In this document: positions 11,415 through 17,750 of the stretch, piece by piece
How the letters are laid out: the number at the start of each line of letters is the position of its first letter
Position numbering within the stretch: the stretch's first letter is position 1
From: an uncultured bacterium
Lineage (GTDB): Bacteria > Bacteroidota > Bacteroidia > Bacteroidales > Bacteroidaceae
Direction: 5' to 3'
NCBI GenBank assembly: GCA_945869305.1
Contig: CAMBOH010000011.1
Location: forward strand, 1 to 34,544
Length of the DNA stretch: 34,544 bases
The notes under the pieces: generated by a model
Told to the model about the DNA's origin: nothing
The model's input: only the letters and a program-made list of their open reading frames with translations
Database searches by the model: none
Translations under genes and position numbers: made by a program

Positions 11415-13340
11415 ATGAAACTCTTTGGAAAGCTTTTCAACTGGTATTTTGGGAAACGCGCATTGCCCTATTGGTGCATCGTGTTGTTTGACCTGTTAGT
11501 ATGTTTTGTGGGTGGACTGTTTATCCTATGGCTGCGCCACCCCATAATGGATTTTGTCGAATATTGGCCCCAGCTGCTACGCACCTATACAGTGTATGCT
11601 TTTGTCAATCTGATAGGCTTCAAGGTTTTCCACACCTATTCGGGCGTGTTGCGCTATTCCCAGTTCACCGACCTGCTGCGTGTGATGTATGCCGGAGTCC
11701 TTTCGTTTGTACTGGCCTATTGTTTCAACTGGCTGGTGATAGATTTTGAGACCACCAGTCTGTTTTATGCCATGACGGGGCGCATGCTGTTCTTCGTCTA
11801 TTTGGGCACTACGACTTTTCTCTGCGGCTCGCGCGTGGTAGTGCGCCTCATTTTTGAGAATGTGCTGATAGCGCAGACCGCCCAGAGCGCACTGGTGTAT
11901 GGTACCCAAGCGGGAGCTGTTTCGCTGACCAACGAAGCCCGTAACACCAAGCCCGTGAGGTTCCTCATCCGTGGCTACGTGGGCGATGGCCGGCAGCGCA
12001 GCAGTGCACGCTTGATGGGCAACCGCATCTATTCCGTTCAGGAGGACCTGCGTTCGGTTATCCGTGAGAAGAACATCAAGGCATTTCTGGTCAGCCCCTT
12101 GCAGCACAAGGCATTCCTGAACAACCGCGAGCTGCAGGACTTGCTGATTGGCGAAGGCGTGAAGATATTCATTGCCCAGAATGCAGCGCAGTGGAACAAG
12201 CATTCGCATGAGAAGGTCGCCATGCGTGAGGTGAAGATTGAGGACCTGCTGCAACGCGATGAAATACAGGTCGACATGAAGAGCGTGGCGGCCCTGCTGA
12301 CCGACAGAAAGGTGCTCATCACAGGTTCGGCCGGCAGTATCGGCTCGGAGCTGGTAAGGCAGATAGCCGGCTTTAAGCCCTCGGAGCTGATGTTGGTCGA
12401 CCAGGCCGAAACGCCGCAACACGACATCCGCCTGATGATTCAGAGGGAATTTCCCGACCAGAAAGCCCACGTGGTGGTGACAAGCATTTGTCGCGAAAAC
12501 CACATGGAACACCTGTTCCGTAGCTTCAAGCCCGACTACGTGTTCCACGCCGCTGCCTACAAGCACGTGCCCATGATGGAGGACAATCCCAGTGAGAGTG
12601 TGCAGAACAACGTGTGGGGTACCAAGGTAATCGCCGACCTCAGTGTGAAGTACGGAGTGAAGAAGTTTGTGATGGTCTCGACCGACAAGGCGGTGAATCC
12701 CACCAATGTCATGGGTTGCTCGAAGCGCATCTGTGAAATCTACGTGCAGAGTCTCGACAAGGCCATCAAGGAAGGAAAGATAAAGGGCGAGACGCAGTTC
12801 GTGACCACGCGCTTCGGCAATGTGTTGGGCTCTAACGGCTCAGTCATCCCCCTGTTCCGCAAGCAGCTTGCCGAAGGCGGTCCGCTCACAGTCACTCACC
12901 CCGACATCATCCGCTTTTTCATGCTCATTCCCGAAGCCTGCAAACTGGTGCTCGAAGCCGGAACGCACGGCAAGGGCGGTGAAATCTTCGTGTTCGACAT
13001 GGGCGACCCTGTGCGCATAGCCGACCTGGCCAAGCGCATGATCCAGCTGAGCGGTGTGCCGGGAGTGACCATTAAGTATACCGGCTTGCGCGAGGGCGAA
13101 AAGCTCTATGAAGAGGTGCTGAGCGCAAATGAGAACACCCTGCCTTCATTCCACGAGAAGATACGCATAGCCCAGGTGCGCAGCTACGAGTATGAGGATG
13201 CCGACCGCGACCTGAAGGAACTGAACGCCATCGCCCTGCGTTTCGACGACATGGCTACCGTGCGCAAGATGAAGGACATCGTGCCCGAGTACGTCAGCAA
13301 GCATTCGCGCTACGAAGTGCTCGACAAAGGCCGTTCCTGA
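11415..13340 (+). CDS. Membrane-bound nucleotide-sugar 4,6-dehydratase, CapD/FlaA1/PglF-like
   Basis: A 641-residue polysaccharide biosynthesis protein expected to convert a UDP-N-acetyl sugar to its 4-keto-6-deoxy form at the inner membrane. Four transmembrane segments fill about residues 19-143, followed by a Rossmann-like linker domain (about 155-260). The SDR catalytic domain follows, with the nucleotide-binding motif ITGSAGSIGSELV (glycines at about 304-310), AAAYKHVPMMEDNP (379-392) and STDKAVNPTNVMGCSKR. In this last motif Met433-x3-Lys437 stands where classical SDRs have Tyr-x3-Lys, as known for the PglF/FlaA1 group. Length is normal. It probably shares the promoter upstream of wbuC. 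The only other sugar-nucleotide gene in the window is rfbD, so this pair is not inside a large capsule locus here. Confidence 0.92.
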   Translation: MKLFGKLFNWYFGKRALPYWCIVLFDLLVCFVGGLFILWLRHPIMDFVEYWPQLLRTYTVYAFVNLIGFKVFHTYSGVLRYSQFTDLLRVMYAGVLSFVLAYCFNWLVIDFETTSLFYAMTGRMLFFVYLGTTTFLCGSRVVVRLIFENVLIAQTAQSALVYGTQAGAVSLTNEARNTKPVRFLIRGYVGDGRQRSSARLMGNRIYSVQEDLRSVIREKNIKAFLVSPLQHKAFLNNRELQDLLIGEGVKIFIAQNAAQWNKHSHEKVAMREVKIEDLLQRDEIQVDMKSVAALLTDRKVLITGSAGSIGSELVRQIAGFKPSELMLVDQAETPQHDIRLMIQREFPDQKAHVVVTSICRENHMEHLFRSFKPDYVFHAAAYKHVPMMEDNPSESVQNNVWGTKVIADLSVKYGVKKFVMVSTDKAVNPTNVMGCSKRICEIYVQSLDKAIKEGKIKGETQFVTTRFGNVLGSNGSVIPLFRKQLAEGGPLTVTHPDIIRFFMLIPEACKLVLEAGTHGKGGEIFVFDMGDPVRIADLAKRMIQLSGVPGVTIKYTGLREGEKLYEEVLSANENTLPSFHEKIRIAQVRSYEYEDADRDLKELNAIALRFDDMATVRKMKDIVPEYVSKHSRYEVLDKGRS

Positions 13341-13757: not shown

Positions 13758-14618
13758 ATGTTCAGTGGTATGAATGGAATAGATGAAAGGTACATCAGCC
13801 TGCTCACCGACTTCGGTTTCAAGCGCATATTCGGCACAGCCCCCAACAAGGACTTGCTGATTAATTTCCTTAACAGCCTCTTCGACGGAAGGAAGGTTAT
13901 CAAAGACTTGAAATACAGCAACCCGGAGCACGTTGGCGACATATACACCGAGCGCAAGGCCATCTTCGATGTCTATTGCGAGAGCGTGGACGGCGAGAAG
14001 TTCATCGTCGAGATGCAGAACGCCTCTCAGAAATTCTTCAAGGACAGGTCGGTCTATTATTCCACCTTCCCCATCCGCGAGCAAGCGCCCAAAGGCGACA
14101 CATGGGACTATCAGTTGAACTCGGTCTATACCGTTGCCCTGCTGAATTTCGACATGAAGGACGAGACGGCTTTTGACAAGGATGAAATCAGTCATCATGT
14201 GCAGCTCTGCGACACCGTCACGAAGCGTGTTTTCTATGACAAGCTCGAGTTTATCTATGTAGAGGTGGCAAAGTTCAACAAGACAGACAGCGAACTGGTC
14301 ACCCTCTACGACAAGTGGCTGTATGCACTGAAGAACCTCTCCACACTTACCGAGCGTCCTGCCGCCCTGCGCGACAAGATATTCGACCGTCTTTTCCAGG
14401 TTGCGGAGATAGCGAAGTTCACCCCCGTCGAACTGAAAGAATACGAGGACAGTCTCAAGACCTATCGTGACCTTAAGAACTCGCTTGACACGGCGGAGGA
14501 GAAGGGTCGTGCGAAGGAGAAAATTGCCATCGCACAAAAGATGAGGTCCAAAGGCTTTTCTGCTGTTGAGATATCAGAAATGACAGGCTTGTCGGAAGAG
14601 GAAATCAAGGCATTGTAA
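13758..14618 (+). CDS. Rpn-family PD-(D/E)XK nuclease / putative transposase, copy 1
   Basis: A 286-residue member of the Rpn (recombination-promoting nuclease) group, annotated in many genomes as PD-(D/E)XK nuclease family transposase. The N-terminal LLTDFGFKRIFG (15-26) is the usual family opening. Asp71 in AIFDVYCESV and Glu85-Met-Gln87 in KFIVEMQ form the D...ExQ version of the nuclease active site. A charged helix (about 225-250) and a short C-terminal helix-turn-helix-like segment ending TGLSEEEIKAL follow. Start 13758 is the first ATG; ATG 13770 corresponds to the start of copy 2. The second copy follows 29 bp after the stop. Residues 253-275 are unlike copy 2, whereas the rest is nearly identical. 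The transposase label does not imply inverted ends; none are seen. Confidence 0.9.
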   Translation: MFSGMNGIDERYISLLTDFGFKRIFGTAPNKDLLINFLNSLFDGRKVIKDLKYSNPEHVGDIYTERKAIFDVYCESVDGEKFIVEMQNASQKFFKDRSVYYSTFPIREQAPKGDTWDYQLNSVYTVALLNFDMKDETAFDKDEISHHVQLCDTVTKRVFYDKLEFIYVEVAKFNKTDSELVTLYDKWLYALKNLSTLTERPAALRDKIFDRLFQVAEIAKFTPVELKEYEDSLKTYRDLKNSLDTAEEKGRAKEKIAIAQKMRSKGFSAVEISEMTGLSEEEIKAL

Positions 14619-14620
14619 AT
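13761..14620 (+). repeat. Tandem duplication, unit 1
   Basis: An 860-bp unit from TTCAGTGGTATG to CATTGTAAAT is repeated at 14639-15498, exactly 878 bp later and without length change. The unit is essentially one rpn gene, with a junction of only 18 bp between units. Confidence 0.92.
14514..14582 (+). other. Divergent 69-bp cassette in rpn copy 1
   Basis: The 69 bp (23 codons, residues 253-275) match the equivalent block of copy 2 at only about half of positions by eye. They are bounded upstream by GAAGGGTCGTGCG and downstream by ACAGGCTTGTCGGAAGAGG, both identical in the two copies. The encoded segment contains KMRSKGFSAVEISEM and forms the first part of the C-terminal helix-turn-helix-like motif. 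Confidence 0.88.
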
Positions 14621-14647
14621 AATTGTGTGTACAAGTTATTCAGTGGT

Positions 14648-15496
14648 ATGAATGGAATAGATGAAAGGTACATCAGTCTGCTCACCGACTTCGGTTTCAA
14701 GCGCATATTCGGCACAGCCCCCAACAAGGATTTGCTGATCAATTTCCTTAACAGCCTCTTCGACGGAAGGAAGGTTATCAAGGACCTGAAATACAGCAAC
14801 TCGGAGCACGTTGGCGACATATACACCGAGCACAAGGCCATCTTCGACGTCTATTGCGAGAGCGTGGACGGCGAGAAGTTCATCGTCGAGATGCAGAACG
14901 CCTCTCAGAAATTCTTCAAGGACAGGTCGGTCTATTATTCCACCTTCCCCATCCGCGAGCAAGCGCCCAAAGGCGACACATGGGACTATCAGTTGAACTC
15001 GGTCTATACCGTTGCCCTGCTGAATTTCGACATGAAGGACGAGACGGCTTTTGACAAGGATGAAATCAGTCATCATGTGCAGCTCTGCGACACCGTCACG
15101 AAGCGTGTTTTCTATGACAAGCTCGAGTTTATCTATGTAGAGGTGGCAAAGTTCAACAAGACAGACAGCGAACTGGTCACCCTCTACGACAAGTGGCTGT
15201 ATGCACTGAAGAACCTCTCCACACTTACCGAGCGTCCTGCCGCCCTGCGCGACAAGATATTCGACCGTCTTTTCCAGGTTGCGGAGATAGCGAAGTTCAC
15301 CCCCGTCGAACTGAAAGAATACGAGGACAGTCTCAAGATCTTTCGTGACCTTAAGAACTCGCTTGACACGGCGGAGGAGAAGGGTCGTGCGGAAAAATCA
15401 ATTGAGATTGCATGTAACCTCAAGTCGATGGGCATGTCTATTTGCGACATCTCAAAAGCCACAGGCTTGTCGGAAGAGGAAATCAAGGCATTGTAA
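14648..15496 (+). CDS. Rpn-family PD-(D/E)XK nuclease / putative transposase, copy 2
   Basis: The second tandem copy has 282 residues from ATG 14648 (MNGIDERYISLLTDFGFK); an in-frame GTG at 14627 would add seven. The active-site residues (Asp, then Glu-Met-Gln in FIVEMQ) are intact, so it should be as catalytically competent as copy 1. In the shared part I see only P to S, R to H and TY to IF changes (copy 1 residues 56, 66, 235-236). The C-terminal block instead contains ACNLKSMGMSICDISKA before the common TGLSEEEIKAL end. Close spacing suggests cotranscription with copy 1. Whether the two act together as a heterodimer, compete or inhibit each other cannot be told from sequence. Known E. coli Rpn proteins are DNA endonucleases tied to recombination and phage defence. 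Confidence 0.9.
   Translation: MNGIDERYISLLTDFGFKRIFGTAPNKDLLINFLNSLFDGRKVIKDLKYSNSEHVGDIYTEHKAIFDVYCESVDGEKFIVEMQNASQKFFKDRSVYYSTFPIREQAPKGDTWDYQLNSVYTVALLNFDMKDETAFDKDEISHHVQLCDTVTKRVFYDKLEFIYVEVAKFNKTDSELVTLYDKWLYALKNLSTLTERPAALRDKIFDRLFQVAEIAKFTPVELKEYEDSLKIFRDLKNSLDTAEEKGRAEKSIEIACNLKSMGMSICDISKATGLSEEEIKAL
15392..15460 (+). other. Divergent 69-bp cassette in rpn copy 2
   Basis: This block is equivalent to 14514-14582 and has the same length, so the frame is preserved, but about half of the bases differ. It encodes a helix with the same G-(F/M)-S...IS pattern, so it is a related but distinct module rather than random sequence. Confidence 0.88.
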
Positions 15497-15823
15497 ATTT
15501 GTTGGTTTTCCTGTCATTATGAATGTAGGACAGGTGTCACTGTCCATATGAATAACCAGCAATCAGACCGCCCTTTCAATCTGGACATAAAAGGGATTTG
15601 ACTATTAGCAGGTATTCCCCCTGACAATAGGATTATTTTGCTTTAGCAAGATGAGCAATGATAAGCTTGTCATACATTGCCATGCCGGGAAAATGTCGGC
15701 AAAACCAATCGGTATCTGGAGGTTTCAAACGCAAAGAGCCTTCCGCAGGTGTCATTGTCTGACACCTGCGGAAGGCTCCTAAAAGGACGACAAGCGTTCA
15801 AGGCATGCCCCGTGCGGGCCGCA
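15497..15823. other. Convergent gene-free interval between rpn copy 2 and the C69 peptidase
   Basis: This interval contains a 19-bp perfect hairpin (15736-15778) near the peptidase stop. No terminator with a T-run is seen for the plus-strand rpn transcript; the same hairpin could serve it without a T-run. No credible gene was found. Confidence 0.55.
15729..15778 (-). terminator. Long perfect hairpin downstream of the C69 peptidase gene
   Basis: GAGCCTTCCGCAGGTGTCA (15736-15754) is perfectly complementary to 15760-15778 around a 5-nt loop. On the minus strand it lies 46 nt after the peptidase stop and is followed by TTTGCGTTTG, a poor but T-rich tail. It may act on both converging transcripts. 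Confidence 0.6.
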
Positions 15824-17473
15824 TCAGGGAATGAGATACTTGTCGCCCGTTTCCTTGACAATCGTTTGCTTGTAGCTGTCGTTGAAGCCGGGGCGTACGG
15901 GGCGTGCGCCCAGTCCGTCAGGGGTAAGCTCGAACTTGCCGTCCTTTTCGGGCTTGACGGTCTGGTCATTATACTTGACGATGAGATATTGGCCCAGCTT
16001 GATCCAGCGGTCCATCATCTGGCGGGCACAGTTGGCCGAGTAGTCGGTGAGGTAGGCCGCGGCACGGGCTGCATCGTAGCGCAGCAGTTCTGTGGCCTGG
16101 CGTTCTACTTCGGCCTGCTTGGCTGCGTAGCGGTCTTCGAGCTCCTGACGGGCCTGCTGCAGGCTCGGGAAGAGCTGCGAGTAGCGCGGATAGGTCATGT
16201 TTGACACCCAGTTCTGTACCCAGAAGGCGGAGTTCCAGGAGAAGGTCACGCCGTCGGCGTCACTGGGGTCGTAGCAGGCGGGAGCCTGTGTGGCCGAGCA
16301 GTAGACGGGGGTGTAGGGAACCATGTTGGGGTCGTCATTGCCATACCAGAGCACGCCTCCCACGGCATTGGGCAGGAAGTCGCGCACCTGAATGACATAG
16401 GTGCCAGCTGTCTGCTGGGTAGAGATGGGACGTTCGTTGAAGTACTTTTTTCCCTCATACTCCCAGGTGAGCGGGGTGGGGCGGTAGGGTGCGCAGTAAG
16501 GGCCAGCTCCTACGTCCTTCGTCACATCAAAGGGGGTGTCTTCATAGTGGTCGCGCATGGAGTTCATGACATCGTGGAGCGACAGCTTCTGCTTGGGCTT
16601 GAAGTAGAGTGGCATGGGTTCGGCCTGGCCGATGTGCTTGCCGTCGGCATAGTCGAGGTAGCGGTCCATGCCCTCGACCCACTTGTTGTAGAAGCTCCAC
16701 ACACGGGTCTCGCAATAGCGGATGGCGCTGAAGTCGGCCGGCGCATAGGCATCGGCAAACGAGAACTCGGCATCCTTCCCGCTGAAGTAGCCTCGCTTGC
16801 GGGCAAAGCTGACCACGTCCTTGGCGTACATGACATTCTGCTTGTCCTTCATGTCGAAGCGGTGTATGCGGCTTTGGTTGGCATGACAGGCGATGCAGTC
16901 GTCAGGGATGCGTACGGCGACCCAGACAGTGCCCCGCTCTTCAGGACCTTTGCCGATCATTTCGAGCATCCACACTTCGTTGGGGTCGGCAATGGAGAAG
17001 CTCTCGCCCTCGGAGGCATAGCCGTAGGTCTGGACCAGTGAGGTCATGACCTGTATGGCTTCGCGTGCGGTCTTGGAACGCTGTAGGGCAATGGTCATGA
17101 GGCTGACGTAGTCGATGATGCCATGGGGGTCGGCCAGCTCTTCGCGTCCGCCAAAGGTTGTTTCGGTGATGGCCACCTGGTGCTCGTTGATGTAGCCTAT
17201 CACGGCATAGGTGTAGGGTGCTTCGGGAATTTCGCCGTGATAGGCGTTGGTGTCGCCGTCTATGATGCGGCGCATGCTTCCCGGTGCGTGGGTTGCAGCA
17301 GGCAGGTAGTGGAGGCGGCCGAACATGCCGTAGTCATCTTGGTTATAGGTGATGAAGGCGGAGCCGTCGGCTGATGCCTTCTTGCCTACCAGAAAGCTGG
17401 TGCAGGCTTGTGCTGCCGGCGAACCGACAGTCAAGGCCAGAGCCAAGGCTGCCATTTTATGGAATAGGTGCAT
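15824..17473 (-). CDS. Peptidase family C69 dipeptidase, secreted
   Basis: A 549-residue Ntn-hydrolase of the PepD/C69 group that cleaves dipeptides or short peptides. A signal peptide (MHLFHKMAALALALTVGSPAAQA) ends right before Cys24 in CTSFLVGKKASADGS. The family uses an N-terminal Cys nucleophile exposed by processing, so signal-peptide cleavage here would directly create it. Other family landmarks include TYNQDDYGMFGRLHYLPA, ITETTFGGREEL and SLMTIALQRSKTAREAI. The 549-residue length is in the range of periplasmic Bacteroidetes members, longer than cytoplasmic lactobacillus PepD. It is transcribed alone: the gene ahead of it on the same strand (nadC) ends 400 bp upstream and a hairpin lies after its own stop. 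The exact substrate is unknown. Confidence 0.93.
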   Translation of the reverse strand: MHLFHKMAALALALTVGSPAAQACTSFLVGKKASADGSAFITYNQDDYGMFGRLHYLPAATHAPGSMRRIIDGDTNAYHGEIPEAPYTYAVIGYINEHQVAITETTFGGREELADPHGIIDYVSLMTIALQRSKTAREAIQVMTSLVQTYGYASEGESFSIADPNEVWMLEMIGKGPEERGTVWVAVRIPDDCIACHANQSRIHRFDMKDKQNVMYAKDVVSFARKRGYFSGKDAEFSFADAYAPADFSAIRYCETRVWSFYNKWVEGMDRYLDYADGKHIGQAEPMPLYFKPKQKLSLHDVMNSMRDHYEDTPFDVTKDVGAGPYCAPYRPTPLTWEYEGKKYFNERPISTQQTAGTYVIQVRDFLPNAVGGVLWYGNDDPNMVPYTPVYCSATQAPACYDPSDADGVTFSWNSAFWVQNWVSNMTYPRYSQLFPSLQQARQELEDRYAAKQAEVERQATELLRYDAARAAAYLTDYSANCARQMMDRWIKLGQYLIVKYNDQTVKPEKDGKFELTPDGLGARPVRPGFNDSYKQTIVKETGDKYLIP

Positions 17474-17504: not shown

Positions 17505-17560
17505 GGGTTATGAGGGATAGGGTTATGAGGGATAGGGTTATGAGGGATAGGGTTATGAGG
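17505..17560. repeat. 15-bp tandem repeat, 3.7 units
   Basis: The unit GGGTTATGAGGGATA occurs three times without change (17505, 17520, 17535), followed by GGGTTATGAGG. The core TTATGAGG is the reverse complement of the CCTCATAA octamer array at 2222-2261. The array lies 30 bp upstream of the peptidase start codon. Confidence 0.92.
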
Positions 17561-17692: not shown

Positions 17693-17750
17693 AGAAGATA
17701 TACTTCATCCGTGATAGAAGATATACTTCATCCGTGATAGAAGATATACT
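17693..17750. repeat. 23-bp tandem repeat, 2.5 units
   Basis: Units 17693-17715 and 17716-17738 are identical (beginning AGAAGATATACTTC and ending CATCCGTGAT), and 17739-17750 repeats the first 12 bases. The AT-rich repeat lies between nadC and the peptidase gene. There are no spacers, so it is not a CRISPR array. Confidence 0.9.

Follow-up and report, generated by a model that had tools for sequence, protein, structure and literature searches.

Tandem Rpn-family nuclease genes with near-identical bodies carry two tail modules of a kind likely swapped between genes by recombination

Why would two neighbouring genes encode nearly the same nuclease and differ abruptly in one short block close to their 3' ends? 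The pair lies in a window of 34,544 nucleotides (the whole stretch of DNA that was analysed, contig CAMBOH010000011.1 of assembly GCA_945869305.1) from an uncultured member of the Bacteroidaceae. Its features are as follows.

13770..14618, forward strand: Rpn-family nuclease gene 1, of the PD-(D/E)XK family, with an alternative upstream ATG at 13758.
13761..13970, forward strand: 5' part of gene 1, with 8 mismatches against 14639-14848 of gene 2.
13971..14460, forward strand: 490-bp stretch identical to 14849-15338 of gene 2, a homogenised or young part of the body.
14505..14513, forward strand: junction Gly-Arg-Ala of gene 1, where four-residue repeats sit in relatives.
14514..14582, forward strand: tail module of gene 1, type K (KEKIAIAQKMRSKGFSAVEISEM), modelled as the end of a long helix and a second helix.
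14583..14620, forward strand: shared 3' end of gene 1 (TGLSEEEIKAL, stop and two bases), identical to 15461-15498.
14648..15496, forward strand: Rpn-family nuclease gene 2, starting 29 bp after the stop of gene 1, with an alternative GTG at 14627.
15383..15391, forward strand: junction Gly-Arg-Ala of gene 2, counterpart of the gene 1 junction.
15392..15460, forward strand: tail module of gene 2, type N (EKSIEIACNLKSMGMSICDISKA), counterpart of the gene 1 module.
15461..15498, forward strand: shared 3' end of gene 2, identical to 14583-14620.

We find the duplicated units at 13761-14620 and 14639-15498, each of 860 bp and in register at an offset of 878 bp with an 18-bp spacer, just as a sequence-only reading of this DNA had proposed two adjacent units of that length. 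The units differ at 42 positions, and 32 of these fall inside the 69-bp block 14514-14582 (versus 15392-15460); the probability that at least 32 of 42 differences land in 69 of 860 bp is P = 6e-27. The same reading had described the block as matching at about half its bases, with equal length and the frame kept, between flanks of identical sequence. The alignment bears this out, as 37 of the 69 bases are identical, five codons are identical, three are silently changed and 15 change a residue, and neither 14465-14513 upstream nor 14583-14620 (38 bp) downstream contains a mismatch. Further upstream, positions 14461 and 14464 differ, and 13971-14460 is free of mismatches, the probability that none of the ten differences outside the block hits this 490-bp stretch being about 6e-5. 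The 5' part adjoining that zero-difference body is about 96% identical, and comparison with seven relatives reveals private changes in both copies within 13761-13970. With 8 mismatches in the first 210 bp and none in the 490 bp, the gene pair is a mosaic. Either the copies diverged and their middle was then homogenised, or the middle is younger, and either way the pair is a recombination mosaic.

The pair is flanked by a gene at 11415-13340, which we take by sequence likeness to encode a nucleotide-sugar enzyme, and by a gene at 15824-17473, presumably, again by likeness, a C69-type peptidase gene. A close relative (G047), about 90% identical in DNA at this slot, has the same two flanking genes and, instead of the Rpn pair, a 376-residue frame between them that is ATPase-like by eye (L303 3520-4650). 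With the same flanks and a different frame between them, the slot is variable. G047 carries its own Rpn tandem pair elsewhere, and in 11 other genomes examined no Rpn match (tblastn E<=1e-5) lies within about 1.5 kb of the C69-type peptidase. Upstream of the peptidase-like gene are short tandem repeats at 17505-17560 (15-bp unit) and 17693-17738 (23-bp unit, two copies).

Both window proteins match Pfam PF12784 (PDDEXK_2; E=5e-73 for gene 1 and E=3e-71 for gene 2) and score 101 and 103.3 bits, respectively, against TIGR01784, the Rpn family of NCBIfam, whose curated cut-off is 52.1. PF04754, the family of the E. coli Rpn proteins, is absent among their Pfam matches at E<=1, and PADLOC likewise returns no match for them at E<=1. 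By analogy with PD-(D/E)XK enzymes, D71, E85 and Q87 would be the catalytic residues; they are kept in 241, 242 and 241 of the 242 aligned rows. A Foldseek search of the PDB yields nothing at E<=0.001, the best match being the EcoT38I endonuclease (E=0.006, TM 0.23), and the fold assignment therefore rests on Pfam. Two further profiles give matches short of their cut-offs, Pfam DUF6115 (E=0.01 and 0.02) and NCBIfam Wmk (E=1e-4 and 7e-6; 21.5 and 25.6 bits against a cut-off of 300). Some relatives (e.g. P0002) bear a precomputed PF27070 beside PF12784, a domain that does not appear in the Pfam scan of the window proteins, and the metagenome proteins P0010 and P0020 extend about 90 residues beyond the tail module.

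Is the contrast between body and tail a peculiarity of this pair, or does it run through the family? We compiled a family set of 241 genes from 105 genomes, reduced from 291 frames (an earlier sample went from 165 to 164). Frames running off a contig end, cores below 230 residues and rows with masked letters were dropped before counting, and genes of one genome with identical last 600 bases were counted once. Genomes were partly picked for many copies and the counts are not population frequencies; related loci are the best 80 of 293, and protein relatives the best 120 of 8000 scored. Among the 241 genes, 140 of the 291 pairs with bodies at least 90% identical as protein have modules below 50%, and in DNA a module core of 60% or less is found in 61 of the 128 pairs with bodies at least 90% identical. 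Relatives that agree at 90-98% in the body fall to only 38-45% in the module (DNA), as do L044/L048 from the same strain (body 97.8%, module 38%) and L024/L050 (body 96.5%, module 44%), and in the tandem pair L010 of G030 a body of 95.8% goes with a module of 48.5% (DNA). The change is abrupt. In a profile of 122 sequences with bodies at least 85% identical, taken from 201 compared and including the window genes, conservation is about 1.0 at most positions through residue 250 and about 0.5 or less thereafter, glycine 266 and TGL at 276-278 being kept within the variable tail.

The window pair is the only one of the 61 whose last 11 codons are again at least 90% identical; the runner-up reaches 88%. 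At this point most relatives that carry the N module have TGLQEEEI or TGLPEDEI; given that gene 2, unlike them, reads TGLSEEEI as gene 1 does, the 3' end has probably been homogenised between the two window copies. Relatives of both window module types are found on similar bodies (P0018, P0001), and among the other related loci compared no recent donor of either module was found, the best DNA match being 77%.

Like tails on unlike bodies would, at the level of sequence, be stronger proof of exchange than unlike tails on like bodies. The sequence-only reading had proposed looking for the same cassettes in different backbones, and they exist. With cut-offs of at most 65% for the body and at least 85% for the module (DNA), we find 13 inverse pairs, whose bodies are 39-52% identical and whose modules are 85-99% identical, six of the 13 at 96% or above. 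In L052/L165:2740 the body is 42% and the module 99% identical, and two neighbouring genes in L046 have bodies at 42% and tails at 89%. Genes from the isolate Segatella copri iA622 (G418) and from G463, a genome in a single contig, are among the 13 pairs, and in five pairs both genes belong to the same genome (four in G494, one in L046). In ten inverse pairs that were aligned, the shared tract begins in or near the repeats; its end lies 4-79 bases beyond the last sense codon in nine and 9 bases before it in one.

The tree of bodies gives a similar picture. On a tree built from the body DNA of 58 genes, the 20 module types present require 28 changes, where 19 would be enough. Branches with good support force at least three changes for the class of K, at least three for the class of T and at least six for a class in which N and a near type are pooled. 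The two genes of the window come out as sisters on this tree (100/99) and carry two different module types. Module types are clustered on it (28 changes against a shuffled mean of 44), indicating that tail exchange is not free. That the C-terminal module is swapped by recombination, as had been suggested from the window alone, is well supported by these comparisons, with a separable module exchanged between Rpn genes (the 140 of 291 like-bodied pairs and the 13 inverse pairs). Unlike Segatella-type Rpn bodies at L052, L165, L108, L151, L170 and L173 share a similar leader with a TAACTTTG motif a short way before the start, and the leader shared by L052 and L165:2740 is 96% identical over 76 bp. 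It looks as if, in the Segatella-type genes, bodies had been exchanged between a common leader and common tails.

In relatives a repeat array stands at the junction of body and tail, and the window genes are without a full repeat. Among pairs with bodies at least 80% identical, 525 are unequal in repeat length, 504 of them by a multiple of four residues. Genome G463 has four genes of one body type in which two tail types and two lengths (45 and 61) occur in all four combinations. We infer that crossovers probably happen in these 12-bp (four-residue) repeats, which would account both for the changes in repeat number and for the position of the junction. At L189, L190 and L192 (G288) and at L289 and L290 (G606), charged coiled-coil-like linkers (EAEAKTKEAK and similar) replace the RAEG-type repeats, and these proteins have up to 135 residues from the body anchor to the tail motif.

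What then is the exchanged module? The sequence-only reading had linked it to a dimer or inhibitor domain, and a relation of this kind is found at modest strength: a tail profile built from 50 relatives matches 7TH0, the solved RpnA-S domain, at positions 254-291 (E=0.002). The same profile ranks a designed repeat protein, 8vd6, above 7TH0 (E=0.0003), and a single window sequence compared with 7TH0 gives E=0.83. The module appears to form the core of a small helical domain related, on this modest evidence, to the dimerisation/antitoxin domain RpnA-S of E. coli. An AlphaFold2 model of middling confidence (mean pLDDT 75.5, pTM 0.70; 282 residues, numbered from the ATG at 13770) has a long helix at 219-260 followed by helices at 265-272 and 276-281. 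On that model the block would cover the second helix and the closing part of the long one, and the last helix would come from the shared 3' end. The modelled tail helices resemble the three-helix RpnA-S of E. coli, a domain that dimerises through its long helix (Zhong et al. 2023, PMC10327210).

The suggestion that the 3' part of the gene is translated separately fares less well. Neither window gene contains an in-frame ATG, GTG or TTG, the three codons checked, at residues 171-261, and an internal antitoxin of the E. coli type is therefore not supported for them. Across the 241 relatives a start codon occurs at 215-250 in 181, compared with 178-233 of 241 in four other stretches of equal length, so that an internal start just upstream of the module is not conserved above background. 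Pointing the other way, 41 of the 241 genes have an ATG at position 243, and a start codon of some kind falls within 215-250 in 30 of the 50 relatives with close bodies. A search of the genome itself with the tail hits five places, all in open frames that are 190-308 residues long, and the assembled part of the genome (75.8% complete) yielded no tail gene standing on its own. With no supported separate translation, conserved start or free-standing tail gene, the remaining reading is that full-length chains would recognise themselves via the tail. A further Rpn copy in the same genome (L005/L006, G000 contig C16, 27030-27889) is split into frames of 188 and 190 residues.

Could the module instead be a DNA-recognition (HTH) element, whose swapping changes the site of cutting or insertion in the manner of the target-recognition domains of restriction enzymes? 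Module swapping does resemble the shuffling of recognition domains among restriction enzymes, and the module has an HTH-like pattern. A DNA preference set by the tail is also suggested for E. coli Rpn in PMC5350276. The charge, however, does not fit a DNA-binding tail: across the 241 genes the tail domain leans slightly to the acidic side, with a mean net charge of -0.87, and it reaches +3 or more in 5 of them, while the two window tails stand at 0 and -2. The relative with a solved structure, 7TH0, has a described role in dimerisation and as an antitoxin. We consider DNA recognition by the module unlikely.

A different account needs no exchange of modules. An old duplication may have left a weakly constrained tail to diverge fast while the bodies were homogenised by gene conversion; a body stretch without differences, beside a 5' part at 96% identity, speaks for homogenisation, and the clustering of module types on the body tree agrees with this account. 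Slow divergence, however, cannot yield modules 85-99% identical (DNA) when the bodies are only 39-52% identical, the K and T classes each turn up on separate branches of the body tree, and the junction is sharp at residue 250. Divergence without exchange is largely refuted for the family by the inverse pairs and may hold for the window pair taken alone; overall it seems distinctly improbable. As for an assembly artefact, in which two strains' alleles of one gene were joined in tandem, the source genome is a draft (126 contigs, 75.8% complete) and an exact repeat of 490 bp is hard for short reads, so that the copy number is less certain than the sequence. Set against this, the 3' end of gene 1 passes through a unique spacer into the 5' end of gene 2, and this path from module through spacer to body still implies a tandem arrangement. 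Moreover, other genomes also have Rpn genes of this family side by side, among them G463 (L165), a genome in a single contig, and both module types have relatives on bodies like those of the window. An artefact is very hard to credit.

The reading that we favour is thus that the window holds tandem Rpn-family nuclease genes with near-identical bodies and two tail modules, and that such modules are likely swapped between genes by recombination. Recombination at the junction repeats would alter repeat number and exchange tails, and in the window pair gene conversion probably homogenised the nuclease body while the modules differ. By analogy, the module together with the repeat number (the spacer) may set which Rpn chains pair or inhibit, and near-identical nucleases with different tails would be kept from assembling together. 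This proposed function draws on the behaviour of RpnA-S and RpnC of E. coli, where the RpnA tail inhibits the RpnA nuclease and not the RpnB nuclease, and where one repeat added to RpnC abolishes recognition (PMC10327210). The role of the nucleases would be phage defence via toxic DNA cutting, as reported for E. coli.

If tails set pairing, do copies in one genome avoid equal tails? We compared same-genome with between-genome pairs, pooled and non-independent as such pairs are, and with modules at least 70% and bodies at least 45% identical the lengths are equal in 2 of 39 same-genome against 20 of 88 between-genome pairs (p=0.011). The result depends on the cut-off: with modules at 0.6 the counts are 5/58 and 30/222 (p=0.22), with modules at 0.8 they are 2/24 and 10/43 (p=0.11), and with bodies at least 97% identical there is no difference (2/21 and 2/20). 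In the first seven same-genome pairs with like modules (module DNA >0.7) the repeat number differs in all seven. An absolute exclusion of equal tails within a genome was weakened by larger samples, namely an earlier, smaller sample than the present one (1/24 same-genome versus 11/73 between-genome, p=0.15) and then the 2/39 versus 20/88 above. Avoidance of the same module type alone is not seen within genomes (38/116 versus 63/482 between genomes, body at least 80%). A tandem pair in G781 (L222), with lengths 45 and 45 and tails one residue apart, is a counterexample, and L159/L175 in G494 is a second. Among the 241 genes there are six pairs whose two members lie in the same locus, five of them with like bodies, and these five differ in module (the window, G030), in repeat number (G047, G463) or in neither (G781); in the sixth, L046, the bodies are unlike. 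The rarity of same-genome copies that are alike in tail type as well as in repeat number is, then, only suggestive.

A wider and tentative proposal, which we hold to be possible rather than probable, is that Bacteroidales Rpn proteins use an address code, tail module times repeat number, reshuffled at the repeats, such that each copy assembles only with itself; the window pair would then be split addresses on one enzyme. G463, with two tails and two lengths in all combinations, would illustrate the code, if true. Up to 19 PF12784 matches (E<=1e-10) occur in one of eight genomes searched. In the many-genome searches, where only some first-look candidates per genome were scored, five genomes of one genus (g73; G605, G685, G747, G790 and G828) have 21-47 first-look Rpn candidates each, 4-8 of them at E<=1e-45. 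Exchangeable tails and a repeat spacer would, if true, be a simple and testable answer to the problem of keeping many similar, presumably toxic nucleases apart, and the modules would be a natural set of candidate orthogonal pairing domains. Naming Rpn genes by the body alone misses what sets the copies apart.

In the HsdS subunits of type I restriction systems, recognition domains are shuffled between paralogues and four-residue repeats act as spacers. The Rpn genes are alike in the exchange of modules between paralogues and in the four-residue repeat spacers; HsdS modules recognise DNA, whereas the Rpn module is a putative pairing domain. The four-residue repeats of EcoR124 are cited as an example in the Discussion of PMC10327210. 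For Rpn, tail hypervariability and repeat variation are already in the literature. We came across no account of tail modules being exchanged from one Rpn body to another in the open-licence literature searched, which included the main text of PMC10327210, where the words 'swap', 'shuffl' and 'mosaic' are absent, and passages of PMC5350276. The E. coli K-12 Rpn proteins (YhgA-like, PF04754; J Bacteriol 2017, PMC5350276) likewise combine a conserved catalytic body with a variable tail; the tail is suggested there to set DNA-site preference, whereas the relatives found here point to a dimerisation-type domain. The closest comparison is with RpnL/RpnS of E. coli (PMC10327210), which share with the window genes the TIGR01784 family, a small helical domain of related type in the tail, four-residue repeats of hypervariable number ahead of that domain (here in relatives) and tandem duplicates. 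Unlike them, the window proteins match PF12784 and not PF04754, their genes lack a canonical internal start, and it is whole tail modules that appear to be exchanged.
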